DNA of 64,000 bases. Source: Rubrivirga marina (GTDB lineage: Bacteria; Bacteroidota; Rhodothermia; Rhodothermales; Rubricoccaceae). Location: positions 3,761,985-3,825,984 of the forward strand of contig NZ_MQWD01000001.1 of assembly GCF_002283365.1 (NCBI RefSeq), given 5' to 3'. The notes under the pieces are model-generated. The model was not told the DNA's origin. It saw only the letters and a program-made list of their open reading frames with translations, and made no database searches. Positions 28,104 to 32,074 of the stretch are shown here, piece by piece (the first letter of the stretch is position 1; every line of letters starts with the position of its first letter). Position numbers and translations under genes: made by a program.

Positions 28104-28631
28104 ATGAGAGCCCTCGTCCTCACTCTCGGCGCCGCCTTGCTGTCGGCCTGCTCGCTGCTGCAGAGCGACGAGCCCGACGCCCCCACCTCCGCCAGCCTCG
28201 TCGTGACCGACCGGGCGAAATACGAGGCCCGGCTTGTGAGCGACGGCCGCGACGCGATCGTCTTCGAGGTCCCGTTCGAGATCCGCAACACGACGGGCGG
28301 CCCGCTCTACCGCGTCGGCTGCCGTCGGCCCCCGAAGCCCGTGCTCGAGAAGCTCGAAGGGGGCCAGTGGGTCACAGCATACTCGACCGGCGAACTCCTG
28401 TGCTTGAGCCCGCCGTTCGTGGTCGCGTCGGGCGAGACCGGTCGGGACACGCTCCAGGTCTACGGCCACCTCTCGGGGCAGGACACGCTGCCGGAATTCA
28501 GGACGGAGGTCGAGGGGACGTACCGGCTGCAGCTCGAACTGTACTCGAGTCTGACCAACGAACAGGCACCGCTCGGGGAGGCCCTCGTGCCGCTGGCGGA
28601 CCGGGTCTCGAACACGTTCGAGGTCGAGTGA
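28104..28631 (+). CDS. Hypothetical lipoprotein
   Basis: This 175-residue protein has a lipobox (LGAALLSACSLL, Cys at about residue 16) and one domain that looks like an immunoglobulin-type beta-sandwich (VFEVPFEIRNTTGGPLYRVG, YRLQLELYS). Two cysteines (RVGCRRP, LLCLSPP) may pair. The phrase 'hxhEIRNTTG' is common in proteins of the intracellular-proteinase-inhibitor (BsuPI) type, but I would not assign it. It stands alone after an upstream inverted repeat. Confidence 0.72.
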   Translation: MRALVLTLGAALLSACSLLQSDEPDAPTSASLVVTDRAKYEARLVSDGRDAIVFEVPFEIRNTTGGPLYRVGCRRPPKPVLEKLEGGQWVTAYSTGELLCLSPPFVVASGETGRDTLQVYGHLSGQDTLPEFRTEVEGTYRLQLELYSSLTNEQAPLGEALVPLADRVSNTFEVE

Positions 28632-29027
28632 GGGGCGCCGTGCATCCCCTCAAAGAAGCTGAATAGATCGAGCGTGGCGTCTGGGCGCGACGAAACAGGG
28701 GCACTGGGCGAAGGGATGCGATTCCAAGATGAGATCTACACCGCCTCGGAGCTTCTCGGCGTTGTTGATCAAATGTGGGCCGCTCACCATCACTTGCCTG
28801 ACTGCGTCAACATGCTATTCGATGCCGGGCGATTAGACGAGGCACACGACTTCACCCGCGACTCATTTGATGAACGGAGACCGCTTTAGCGGCCCGGACG
28901 ATGGGCAACACTTTGGACCGGGGCGATGGGTGACCCAACGGAAGAAACTGAGCCAGTCTGGAGCCCCACCGAGGCGGACGCAGACGAAGATGCCCCGTCG
29001 TAGACTCGGACACGCCACGCTGCCCCG
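28632..29027. other. AT-richer 396-base stretch with two small ORFs
   Basis: Between two lipoprotein genes this stretch has visibly lower G+C and atypical codons (for example GTTGTTGATCAAATG and GATTAGACGAGGCACACG). It holds a 57-codon ORF (28716-28889). After an in-frame TAG, an acidic 25-codon ORF (28926-29003, MGDPTEETEPVWSPTEADAD...) follows in the same frame. It may be transferred DNA or the remnant of a gene split by the TAG. Confidence 0.55.
28716..28889 (+). CDS. Small hypothetical ORF in atypical DNA
   Basis: A 57-residue ORF beginning MRFQDEIYTASELLGVVDQM and ending DSFDERRPL. It is acidic and amphipathic, with a His-His-His cluster, and AAGGG lies immediately before the ATG. An in-frame GTG at 28674 would add 14 residues. 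Base use differs from neighbours. No relative is recognised; it may be a real small protein, an antitoxin-like fragment or a pseudogene. Confidence 0.4.
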   Translation: MRFQDEIYTASELLGVVDQMWAAHHHLPDCVNMLFDAGRLDEAHDFTRDSFDERRPL

Positions 29028-29474
29028 ATGCGCCTCCTCCCGCTCGCCGCCCTCCTCGCCCTCGCCGCCTGCCAGTCCGCCGCGCCGCTCCAGACGGGCG
29101 CCACCGGGCTCGACCACGCCGCGATCCACGTCTCCGACCTGGACGCCAGCGTCGCGTTCTACGAGCGGGTGTTCGACCTCGACGAGATCCCGGCCCCCGG
29201 CGACCCCGCGGTCATCCGCTGGCTCGGCCTCGACGGCGCCGAGCTCCACCTGATCCACTACGAGGGCGACGTGCCGCCGACCACGAAGGCCGTCCACTTC
29301 GCGCTCCGCGTGCCCGACCTCGACGCGCTCGTGGACCGGGTCGAGGCCCTCGGCGTGCCCTACTCCGACTGGCCCGGCGCGGCGTCGACGCTGAGCGTCC
29401 GCGGCGACGGGATCCGCCAGATCTACGTCCAGGACCCCGACGGGTACTGGATCGAGGTCAACGACGTCCGCTGA
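29028..29474 (+). CDS. VOC (glyoxalase/bleomycin-resistance fold) lipoprotein
   Basis: This 148-residue protein has a lipobox (LLALAACQSA, Cys at about residue 15), then one vicinal-oxygen-chelate domain. Landmarks are GLDHAAIHVSDLDASVAFYE (metal His and first beta-alpha unit), GAELHLIHYEG, VHFALRVPDLDALVDRVE and YVQDPDGYWIEVNDV (metal Glu). It is a member of the glyoxalase I-like superfamily with an export signal, which is unusual. The following gene starts 2 bases after its stop. Substrate is unknown. Confidence 0.87.
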   Translation: MRLLPLAALLALAACQSAAPLQTGATGLDHAAIHVSDLDASVAFYERVFDLDEIPAPGDPAVIRWLGLDGAELHLIHYEGDVPPTTKAVHFALRVPDLDALVDRVEALGVPYSDWPGAASTLSVRGDGIRQIYVQDPDGYWIEVNDVR

Positions 29475-29475
29475 C

Positions 29476-30333
29476 ATGCTGCGACTCCTCGCCCTCATTC
29501 TGTTCGCGCTCACCCTCGGCGCGTGCGCGTCGTCCCGGCCGAGCGCCGACGCCGAGCCGGTCCGCGTGATGTCGTTCAACATCCGCGTCGACGTGGCCTC
29601 CGACGGCGAGGACGCGTGGCCGAACCGGGTCGAGGCCGTCGCCGCCACGATCCGCGAGGCCGACGTGGTGGGCCTGCAGGAGGCGACGCCGGCCATGCTC
29701 GACACCCTCATGGCGCGGCTCCCCGAGTTCCGCCGGTTCGGCGTCGGCCGCGACGCCGACGGCGGCGGTGAGCAGAGCGCGATCCTCGTCCGCCGTGACC
29801 GGTTCGACATCGTCGCGGGCGGGACGTTCTGGCTCTCCCCCACCCCGTCCGAGGCGGGCAGCGTCGGGTGGGACGCCGCGCTCCCCCGCATCGCGACGTG
29901 GGCCCGCCTCGACGACGCCCGGGGCCGGACGTTCACGATCCTCAACACGCACTTCGACCACATGGGCGAGACGGCGCGGACGGAGAGCGCGGCGCTCGTC
30001 GCCGACCGCGCGGTCGAGCTCGCCGGTCGGGGCCCGCTCGTCGTCACCGGCGACATGAACGCGACGCCCGATTCCGACGCCTACGCCGCGCTGGCGGCCG
30101 CGCTCGGCGACGCCCGGCTCGTCTCGGAAACGCCGCCAGCGGGCGGCGATGCGACGTGGAACGCCTTCGGGAGCGCGACCGACGACCGGCGCATCGACTA
30201 CGTGTTCGTGAACGACCGCGTCCGCGTCCTCCAGACGGCGACGCTCGACCGGGCGATCGGCGACGTGCTCGGGACCCGCGACGCGCGGCTCCCCTCCGAC
30301 CACCACGCCGTGACGGCGACCCTCACGTTCTGA
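29476..30333 (+). CDS. EEP-family hydrolase lipoprotein
   Basis: This 285-residue protein has a lipobox (LTLGACASSRP, Cys at about residue 17) and an endonuclease/exonuclease/phosphatase domain. Motifs in order are VMSFNIRVDVASDGEDAWPN, VVGLQEATP, AILVRRDRF, FTILNTHFDHMG, VVTGDMNATPDS, DDRRIDYVFVND and PSDHHAVTATL. The DGEDAWPNR sequence after FNIR is shared with exported members thought to act on sugars, lipids or nucleotides. It begins 2 bases after the VOC lipoprotein gene. The next gene starts with GTG one base past its stop. Confidence 0.88.
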   Translation: MLRLLALILFALTLGACASSRPSADAEPVRVMSFNIRVDVASDGEDAWPNRVEAVAATIREADVVGLQEATPAMLDTLMARLPEFRRFGVGRDADGGGEQSAILVRRDRFDIVAGGTFWLSPTPSEAGSVGWDAALPRIATWARLDDARGRTFTILNTHFDHMGETARTESAALVADRAVELAGRGPLVVTGDMNATPDSDAYAALAAALGDARLVSETPPAGGDATWNAFGSATDDRRIDYVFVNDRVRVLQTATLDRAIGDVLGTRDARLPSDHHAVTATLTF

Positions 30334-30334
30334 G

Positions 30335-30925
30335 GTGCCGGAGCCGCCCCCCAACCACGTTCACCCGGAGAGCCGGGCCGAGTGGCGCGCGTGGCTCGAA
30401 GCGCACCACGACCGCGACGAGGGCGTCTGGCTCGTCCTCTACAAGAAGGCCACGGGCAAACCCACGCTCACCGTCGACGAGTACGTGTCGGAGGCCATCG
30501 CCTTCGGGTGGATCGACAGCACGCCGAAGAAGGTCGACGCCGAGCGGTCGGCGGTGTGGGTCGCCCCGCGGAAGCCGGGCTCGAACTGGTCGCGCCTCAG
30601 CAAGCAGCGCGCGGAACGGATGGAGGCGGCCGGGCTCATGACCGAGGCGGGCCGGGCCGCCATCGACCGCGCCCAGGCCGACGGCACCTGGACGATCCTC
30701 GACGACGTGGAAGACCTCGTCGTCCCCGATGACCTCGGGGCCGCGCTCGACGCGAACCCGCCGGCCCGTGCCGAATGGGACGCGTTCCCGCCCTCGGCAC
30801 GACGCGGCATCCTGGAGTGGATCGTCAACGCCAAACGGGACGCCACGCGTGCGAAGCGGATCGAGGAGACGGCCCGGCTCGCGCGGGTCGGAAAGCGCGC
30901 GAACCAGTGGCCGCGCGAGGGGTAG
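30335..30925 (+). CDS. YdeI/OmpD-associated family protein
   Basis: This 196-residue cytosolic protein is of the YdeI family (Bacteroidota/actinobacterial type). Landmarks are WRAWLEAHHDRDEGVWLVLY, KPTLTVDEYVSEAIAFGWID, RSAVWVAPRKPGSNWSRLSK and FPPSARRGILEWIVNAKRD. The last matches the helical C-terminal segment that gave the YdeI name. Known members have been linked to bacteriocin or antimicrobial tolerance, but without a defined reaction. The start is GTG, directly after the EEP gene and 24 bases before the metallo-beta-lactamase. Confidence 0.85.
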   Translation: MPEPPPNHVHPESRAEWRAWLEAHHDRDEGVWLVLYKKATGKPTLTVDEYVSEAIAFGWIDSTPKKVDAERSAVWVAPRKPGSNWSRLSKQRAERMEAAGLMTEAGRAAIDRAQADGTWTILDDVEDLVVPDDLGAALDANPPARAEWDAFPPSARRGILEWIVNAKRDATRAKRIEETARLARVGKRANQWPREG

Positions 30926-30949
30926 GCGGCTCGTCCTCCCCACCCCGGC

Positions 30950-31714
30950 ATGGCCCGCCTCGGTCTCCTCGTCGCCCTCCTCGCCGGCTGCGCCTCCGCG
31001 CCCGTCGCCCCCTACGCCCACCCGACGGCCGACGACGTGGCGCCTGGCGAGATCGCACTCCGCCAGATCCGCCCCGGCGTCTGGGTCCACGTCTCGACGT
31101 CCGACCTCGGCAACGGGCTGATCTACCCCTCGAACGGGCTCGTCGTCCGCGACGGCGACGGCGTGTGGCTGGTCGACACGGCGTGGGGCGAGGCGGCGAC
31201 GGCCGCGCTCCTCGACGCCGTCGAGGCCGAGATCGGGCTGCCGGTCCGCGGCGCCGTCGCCACGCACTTCCACGACGACCGCGTCGAGGGCGCCGACGTG
31301 CTCCGCCAGCGCGGCATCCCCGTCTACGCCTCGTCGCTGACGCAGCGGCTGGCAGCCGCGGAGGACAACGCCGTCCCGTCCGATTCTCTCGCGGGGCTGA
31401 CCGTCCCGGGCACGGCCGTCCGCCTGGGCCCGCTCGAGGTGCTGTACCCCGGCGGCGGCCACACCCGCGACAACCTCGTCGTGTACGCCCCCGGGGCCGG
31501 CGTCCTCCACGGCGGCTGCGCCGTCCACGAGATGGCGCGGACGCACGCCGGCAACGTCGCCGACGCCGACCTCGACGCGTGGCCGGAGTCGCTCCGGCTC
31601 GTGCGCGAGCGCTACCCCGAGGTGGAGGTCGTCGTCCCCGGCCACGGCTACCCCGGGGGGGCCGAGTTGCTCGACCACTCGATCGAGATCGTCGAGGCGG
31701 CGCAACAGGACTGA
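30950..31714 (+). CDS. Subclass B1 metallo-beta-lactamase, VIM-like lipoprotein
   Basis: This 254-residue di-zinc enzyme should hydrolyse beta-lactams, including carbapenems, outside the cytoplasm. The lipobox LLAGCAS (Cys14) predicts lipidation, as in NDM-1. Zn1 ligands are His106, His108 (THFHDD) and His171 (GGHTRDNL). Zn2 ligands are Asp110, Cys190 (HGGCAVHE) and His232 (PGHGYPGG), which define subclass B1. The segments YPSNGLVVRDGD, LVDTAWG, EIGLPV, ATHFHDDRVEGADVLR, DNLVVY and AGNVADADL closely match VIM enzymes as I recall them. His193 and Arg197 occupy the positions of VIM-1 His224 and Arg228. There is no integron or cassette signal around it. Activity is inferred. Confidence 0.92.
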   Translation: MARLGLLVALLAGCASAPVAPYAHPTADDVAPGEIALRQIRPGVWVHVSTSDLGNGLIYPSNGLVVRDGDGVWLVDTAWGEAATAALLDAVEAEIGLPVRGAVATHFHDDRVEGADVLRQRGIPVYASSLTQRLAAAEDNAVPSDSLAGLTVPGTAVRLGPLEVLYPGGGHTRDNLVVYAPGAGVLHGGCAVHEMARTHAGNVADADLDAWPESLRLVRERYPEVEVVVPGHGYPGGAELLDHSIEIVEAAQQD

Positions 31715-31753
31715 GCGGCGGGCCGTACCCGACATTCGCTGCCTCCCGTCGCC

Positions 31754-32074
31754 ATGACCCGCGTCTTCAGCCACCCCGACCCCGCCATCACGCACCTCGT
31801 GCTCAACCGCCTCGAGCAGCTCGGGGTCGACGCCGTGGTCCAGGGTCAGGCGAATGGCCGGGGGATGGGCGAGATCCCGCCGATCGCCGCGTGGTCCGAG
31901 GTCTGGGTCGCCGACGGCGCGTCTCTGGCGGACGTCGAGGCCGCCGTGGCCGAGGTCACGGCCGAGCCCGTTCCGGACTCCGAGAACTGGACGTGCCCGA
32001 CCTGCGACGAAGTCGTCGGAGGCCAGTTCAGCGCGTGCTGGGCGTGCGGGACGTCCGCGCCCGACGTGGCATAG
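31754..32074 (+). CDS. DUF2007-like protein with C-terminal zinc ribbon
   Basis: This 106-residue protein has an N-terminal ACT-like domain of the DUF2007 'putative signal-transducing protein' type (VFSHPDPAITHLVLNRLEQL, then SEVWVADGASLADVEAAVAE). A two-knuckle zinc ribbon follows, with CPTC at about 84-87 and CWAC at about 98-101. The combination is common in Bacteroidota and proteobacteria; no function has been established. It is followed by a perfect palindrome and a convergent gene. Confidence 0.82.
   Translation: MTRVFSHPDPAITHLVLNRLEQLGVDAVVQGQANGRGMGEIPPIAAWSEVWVADGASLADVEAAVAEVTAEPVPDSENWTCPTCDEVVGGQFSACWACGTSAPDVA

Follow-up and report, generated by a model that had tools for sequence, protein, structure and literature searches.

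A predicted chromosomal subclass B1 metallo-β-lactamase of the VIM clade in Rubrivirga marina

The stretch of DNA analyzed here (the window: 64,000 nucleotides, contig positions 3761985-3825984, on a 4.7-Mb contig) carries on its forward strand, at 30950-31714, an open reading frame for a 254-residue subclass B1 metallo-β-lactamase. Judged from its sequence, the enzyme adds a new, resident member to the VIM branch, in a marine host (Rubrivirga, family Rubricoccaceae, Rhodothermota) far from hospital pathogens. We consider it highly probable that it functions as a resident chromosomal di-zinc B1 metallo-β-lactamase of the VIM-containing clade, with the mechanism proposed below. The surrounding clade is a more interesting result than the enzyme itself: resident VIM-clade enzymes occur in Rhodothermota and in Bowmanella, with up to 70-71% identity to VIM-1 and with the distinctive substrate-binding residues of VIM.

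The gene and its zinc ligands

The ATG at 30950 is the sole possible start, because an in-frame TAG lies upstream (30923-30925, the stop codon of the upstream gene) with no start codon between. In the 62-row alignment, the six B1 zinc ligands are complete (H106/H108/D110, H171, C190, and H232), as the sequence-only reading had stated.

30950-31714, forward strand: subclass B1 metallo-β-lactamase of the VIM clade, 254 residues (open reading frame, PDB and NCBIfam matches, trees)
31265-31279, forward strand: zinc motif HFHDD, with H106, H108, and D110 = BBL H116, H118, and D120 (alignment)
31460-31462, forward strand: zinc ligand H171 = BBL H196 (alignment)
31517-31519, forward strand: zinc ligand C190 = BBL C221 (alignment)
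31643-31645, forward strand: zinc ligand H232 = BBL H263 (alignment)

The GC content near 73% in the window gives mechanically many long antisense and out-of-frame open reading frames, like the one at 30323-31795 on the minus strand, which spans the B1 gene.

Similarity to known families

The top PDB match (phmmer) is VIM-4 (E = 3.9e-87, 295 bits). Only VIM chains lead the PDB ranking; a gap separates them from the other B1 enzymes at about 175-160 bits, with NDM chains beginning at about 160 bits. The earlier statement that the framework is nearer to VIM than to generic MBL-fold proteins agrees with this ranking. The identity to VIM enzymes is 54-58% (56% to VIM-1) vs. 37% to NDM. Among the NCBIfam families, blaVIM (NF012100) scores highest with 301.5 bits; the next best are COR, PYX, and MYX (186-210 bits, about 100 bits under the blaVIM score), three families compared by NCBIfam scores only and absent from the trees. 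The generic B1 equivalog NF033088 gives 240.8 bits, above its 200-bit cut-off. The NDM model NF000259 gives 148.2 bits vs. a cut-off of 580 and, with H224 instead of Lys224, the protein is not a member of NDM. Neither is it a VIM allele, which is ruled out by the 301.5 bits vs. the blaVIM cut-off of 500 and by the identity of 54-58%.

The likeness to VIM (VIM-4, VIM-1, and VIM-2) comprises the six zinc ligands, Tyr67, Trp87, the AGNVADADL stretch, the fold, and the common clade; Lys224 is missing, with His instead, and Arg228 is present as in VIM-4 and VIM-2. On the other hand, the window gene is chromosomal with a GC content of 76% (vs. 55% in VIM), the protein has a lipobox where VIM has a plain signal peptide, and its L3 loop is one residue longer with Leu at Phe61. 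With NDM-1, the protein shares the B1 ligands and a lipobox Cys, but NDM-1 differs by the 37% identity, by Lys224 and Ala228, and by a weakly supported placement far outside the VIM clade. In the plasmid search, no relative with at least 60% identity was found, the records listed being VIM, NDM, and IMP alleles, and no relatives were found in the viral contigs and phages searched.

Phylogeny of the VIM clade

The rows of the 62-row tree come from the host family, order, and phylum, from genome contigs, and from samples taken around Bowmanella and G869 (a gammaproteobacterium) at four taxonomic ranks (family, order, class, and phylum), with VIM-1, VIM-2, NDM-1, and IMP-1 taken from plasmids as references. 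The trees were built without the COR, PYX, MYX, and FIM families and without targeted alphaproteobacterial or myxobacterial sampling, the Pseudomonadota being covered by samples. In the 62-row tree, the window protein belongs to a clade of ten members with support 98/97: VIM-1, VIM-2, two Bowmanella proteins, G869, three Rubrivirga proteins, G005 (Rubricoccaceae), and G246 (another Rhodothermales family). Thus, five of the eight environmental members are from Rhodothermota, the rest being the two Bowmanella proteins and G869. The latter is basal in the clade, the three Rubrivirga proteins group together (100/96), G005 pairs with G246, and the two Bowmanella proteins group with VIM-1 and VIM-2 (100/98). 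The same clade occurs in a 15-row tree (99/96), which is weaker for the Rubrivirga group (94/92) and for the fork separating G869 (82/81), and without a resolved position for G005 and G246. The identity to VIM-1 is 71% for G005, 67 and 70% for the Bowmanella proteins, 63% for G246, 56% for the window protein, and 55% for G869. Wider searches at the family, order, class, and phylum levels gave one further clade member, G869; among the genomes of its family and order in the collection, no other carriers of a clade gene were found.

The phylogenetic check set beforehand concerned placement within or outside the VIM/NDM side of subclass B1, and the window protein lies inside the VIM clade. According to these trees, the Bowmanella enzymes are the sister group of VIM, followed by the two other Rhodothermota genes (G005 and G246, at 63-71%); the window protein is on the VIM branch of subclass B1, outside this inner group, and not the nearest relative of VIM. 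Four alternative groupings are rejected by AU p-values that are indicative only, because the constrained groups were partly chosen after the tree was seen: VIM with Rubrivirga alone (p 0.0007, so that the window gene is not the nearest kin of VIM), VIM with G005 and G246 without Bowmanella (p 0.007-0.009), a single vertical clade of all Rhodothermota members (p 0.003-0.011), and all gammaproteobacterial members together (p 0.014).

Positions 224 and 228, the L3 loop, and the predicted structure

The absence of Lys224 and the variation at positions 224 and 228 are a VIM hallmark, with the carboxylate contact taken over by a Cys221-bound water and, in VIM-2, by Arg228 (PMC6326847).

31526-31528, forward strand: H193 = BBL 224, VIM-clade hallmark in place of Lys224 (alignment)
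31538-31540, forward strand: R197 = BBL 228, VIM-clade hallmark (alignment)
31088-31138, forward strand: L3 loop segment HVSTSDLGNGLIYPSNG, with one residue more than its counterparts in VIM, Bowmanella, G005, and G246 (alignment)

Among the 62 aligned rows, the ten clade members have His or Tyr at position 224 without exception, and the 52 remaining sequences all have Lys or Arg there. Nine of the ten, all but VIM-1 with its Ser, carry Arg228, as against none of the 52. The window protein has the pair H224/R228. This trait supports the VIM clade, although both columns are also within the alignment from which the tree was made. His193 and Arg197 had been equated with His224 and Arg228 of VIM-1; the alignment to positions 224 and 228 stands, but VIM-1 has His224/Ser228, and the His224/Arg228 pair is that of VIM-4. 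Since Arg228 is found in 8/8 and His224 in 7/8 environmental members, the VIM-4-like state looks ancestral, which suggests that Ser228 of VIM-1 and Tyr224 of VIM-2 are derived. The direction from VIM-4 to VIM-1 inferred elsewhere (PMC5941070) agrees with such an ancestral state.

In the L3 loop, the window protein has Leu where VIM has Phe61. Because of this Leu and of the extra residue, the predicted substrate or inhibitor preference may differ from that of VIM. The length of L3 does not mark the clade cleanly: a 16-residue reading is found in 16 of the 62 rows, including ten that lie outside the inner group. The AlphaFold model is of moderate quality (pLDDT 69, pTM 0.73, poor C-terminus) with a shallow input of four sequences. 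The best PDB structural alignments listed are all with VIM (Z 27-28, the better ones with rmsd 2.1-2.8 across about 200 residues); such a model adds little to the homology.

Locus, composition, and selection

The gene order is (Pfam): response-regulator/SpoIIE phosphatase, lipoprotein, glyoxalase-fold lipoprotein, endo/exonuclease/phosphatase-family lipoprotein, YdeI/OmdA, the B1 enzyme, and then DUF2007, GNAT, glutaminyl-tRNA synthetase, GNAT, and glutamyl-tRNA synthetase. The two synthetases were assigned by reading the sequences, the other neighbors being named from Pfam.

28104-31714, forward strand: accessory block of lipoprotein, glyoxalase-fold lipoprotein, endo/exonuclease/phosphatase-family lipoprotein, YdeI/OmdA, and B1 enzyme (Pfam, genome comparison)

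In three further Rubrivirga genomes, the gene is present in G006 (76%) and G007 (89%) and missing in G008; a protein 89% identical to the window protein is present in a named Rubrivirga MAG. G006 has the same gene order except that YdeI/OmdA is lacking, and G007 has it within the extent of its 5.7-kb contig; the glyoxalase, phosphatase-family, and B1 genes are common to the three genomes. In G008, 170 bases separate the SpoIIE gene from DUF2007, and the whole block is therefore absent there, through either gain elsewhere or loss in G008. With one of the four Rubrivirga genomes lacking it, the gene is accessory. The block at 28104-31714 of the window, considered together with locus L088 (5016-5491), comprises about five genes, the majority with a lipobox; no recombinase was seen.

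The GC content of the B1 gene is 75.6% vs. 72.5% for the window, and its GC3 (0.97) is within the range of the neighbors (0.89-1.00), in line with the earlier remark that its base composition matches theirs. The NG86 dN/dS values against two orthologs are 0.19 and 0.27; values around 0.2 indicate purifying selection. A chromosomal setting without integron had also been proposed, and indeed no integrase or transposase occurs among the Pfam-scanned neighbors at this conserved locus. The gene is thus not an integron cassette (it is chromosomal, in a conserved gene order, with integrase absent from the scanned neighbors); in the plasmid records from which VIM-1 and VIM-2 were taken, intI1 directly adjoins the gene. 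Nothing was found with PADLOC, or by scanning the window for Rfam families and tRNAs.

These observations bear on whether the gene could be a mobilized VIM allele or a cassette recently acquired by this genome, as the top rank of blaVIM among the family scores and the absence of the block in G008 might suggest. The identity and blaVIM score given above, the native composition, and the lack of an integrase nearby speak against it. Further, the same gene order is found in three Rubrivirga species whose orthologs are 74-89% identical, and a shared locus with such divergence among congeners refutes a recent acquisition. We regard this origin as extremely improbable.

N-terminus and lipid anchor

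The N-terminus MARLGLLVALLAGC bears a standard lipobox, LAGC, with Cys14.

30950-30988, forward strand: predicted lipoprotein signal peptide MARLGLLVALLAG, 13 residues, short, with one Arg (sequence; lipobox LAGC)
30989-30991, forward strand: lipobox Cys14, predicted lipidated first mature residue, with a short tether to about residue 24 (lipobox; inferred)

The lipobox is VTGC in G006 and VAGC in G246, and it is missing in VIM, Bowmanella, and G869; G005 is left out of the comparison, its contig ending before the N-terminus. The window protein is probably a lipoprotein, although its signal peptide has only 13 residues and the 89% ortholog reads FAGC, a nonstandard lipobox. The neighboring genes often have a lipobox too (LSAC at 28104, LAAC at 29028, and LGAC at 29476). 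The anchor therefore fits a habit of the host: of the NDM-like lipid anchor noted earlier, the lipobox with Cys14 is retained, but not a special link to NDM.

Proposed function

B1 enzymes hold two zinc ions; a bridging hydroxide attacks the β-lactam carbonyl, and Zn2 stabilizes the anionic intermediate. The window protein would be exported by the Sec pathway and lipidated at Cys14, which would anchor it to the membrane on the periplasmic side. A water activated by two zinc ions, one bound by H116/H118/H196 and the other by D120/C221/H263, would open the β-lactam ring of penicillins, cephalosporins, and carbapenems. As in VIM, the substrate carboxylate would be held by Zn2, the backbone of Asn233, Arg228, and a Cys221-bound water, and not by Lys224. 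The natural role may be to shield the marine bacterium from β-lactams of its neighbors, and VIM itself would come from a different lineage, placed further inside this clade.

A B1-fold hydrolase with a non-β-lactam physiological substrate, that is, a repurposed MBL-fold enzyme, would agree with the glyoxalase-fold and phosphatase-family lipoproteins next to the gene and with the absence of an adjoining β-lactam regulator or resistance gene. We find it unlikely: the full set of B1 ligands and the substrate-binding residues are conserved across the clade, VIM included, and the cut-off of the curated B1 equivalog is passed. Also in favor of the proposed function, six of eight tested chromosomal B1 genes from outside Proteobacteria hydrolyzed imipenem (PMC5637372).

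Origin of VIM

A paper that called the environmental source of VIM unknown also reported, in 2018, reads from ocean metagenomes with 53-55% identity to VIM (PMC5895761). In a large B1 survey, the chromosomal hosts of the VIM-holding groups were all Proteobacteria (PMC5637372). The sequence-only reading saw in Rhodothermota a reservoir close to the origin of VIM. In its favor, Rhodothermota do have a place in the VIM clade, where they supply five of its eight environmental members; however, the window gene is only 54-58% identical to VIM, the sister of VIM is Bowmanella, and monophyly of the Rhodothermota members is rejected. The proximate donor of VIM may be gammaproteobacterial.

Two histories can be considered for the deeper root. 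VIM and Bowmanella could have branched from a Rhodothermota radiation of chromosomal lipoprotein B1 enzymes, by a transfer across phyla to marine Gammaproteobacteria; the lipid anchor would have been lost and L3 shortened before capture as an integron cassette. We offer this history tentatively, as a rather doubtful one; if true, VIM would be a mobile carbapenemase with a deeper root outside Proteobacteria. Alternatively, the VIM clade would be gammaproteobacterial, with Rhodothermota as recipients more than once and the window gene in an early recipient lineage, which is compatible with the function proposed above. This second history is quite conceivable, if short of even odds. Both the basal G869 and Bowmanella, the sister of VIM, are Gammaproteobacteria, with home-like composition and chromosomal context, and the genes of G005 and G246 deviate in GC from their contigs (66.5 vs. 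72.3% and 63.8 vs. 57.4%, respectively), so that both may be transferred genes. Against it, Rhodothermota make up five of the eight environmental members, with VIM and Bowmanella nested above them; and, the gammaproteobacterial grouping being rejected (p 0.014), several transfers would be needed.

The clade supplies an outgroup for the evolution of VIM and helps to trace its source, with Rubricoccaceae, other Rhodothermales, and Bowmanella as the sampling targets indicated. In a literature search mostly outside the subscription journals, no paper on Rubrivirga and metallo-β-lactamases was found; prior description of some of the clade genes is possible.

Relatives in other genomes

The enzymes of Bowmanella denitrificans and B. 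yangjiangensis (L014 and L015) resemble the window protein in belonging to the VIM clade, in H224/R228, and in being chromosomal, with neighbors conserved in the two species; they differ in being nearer to VIM (67-70%), without lipobox, and with a short L3 loop. The G005 gene is terminal on a 6.2-kb contig whose tetranucleotide profile fits Rubricoccaceae (0.77 to another G005 contig and 0.83-0.84 to Rubrivirga). On the G246 contig, two proteins of serine β-lactamase fold (PF00144; L073, 1382-2521 and 7436-8128) and, by eye, two glyoxalase-like open reading frames flank the VIM-like gene; RND-efflux-like and P-type-ATPase-like frames are seen, also by eye, on the same contig. Two other Rubricoccaceae genomes contain B1 enzymes with Lys224 (L006, 1495-2274 on the minus strand, and L007), which form a separate lineage adjoining the VIM clade; for L006, the PYX family score is as high as that of blaVIM. 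In a relative of Bowmanella (G603, L047), the B1 gene is broken by one in-frame TAG and is possibly a pseudogene. The G869 gene (L074, 9321-10109) has genes resembling those for elongation factor G and NADH dehydrogenase in its vicinity.
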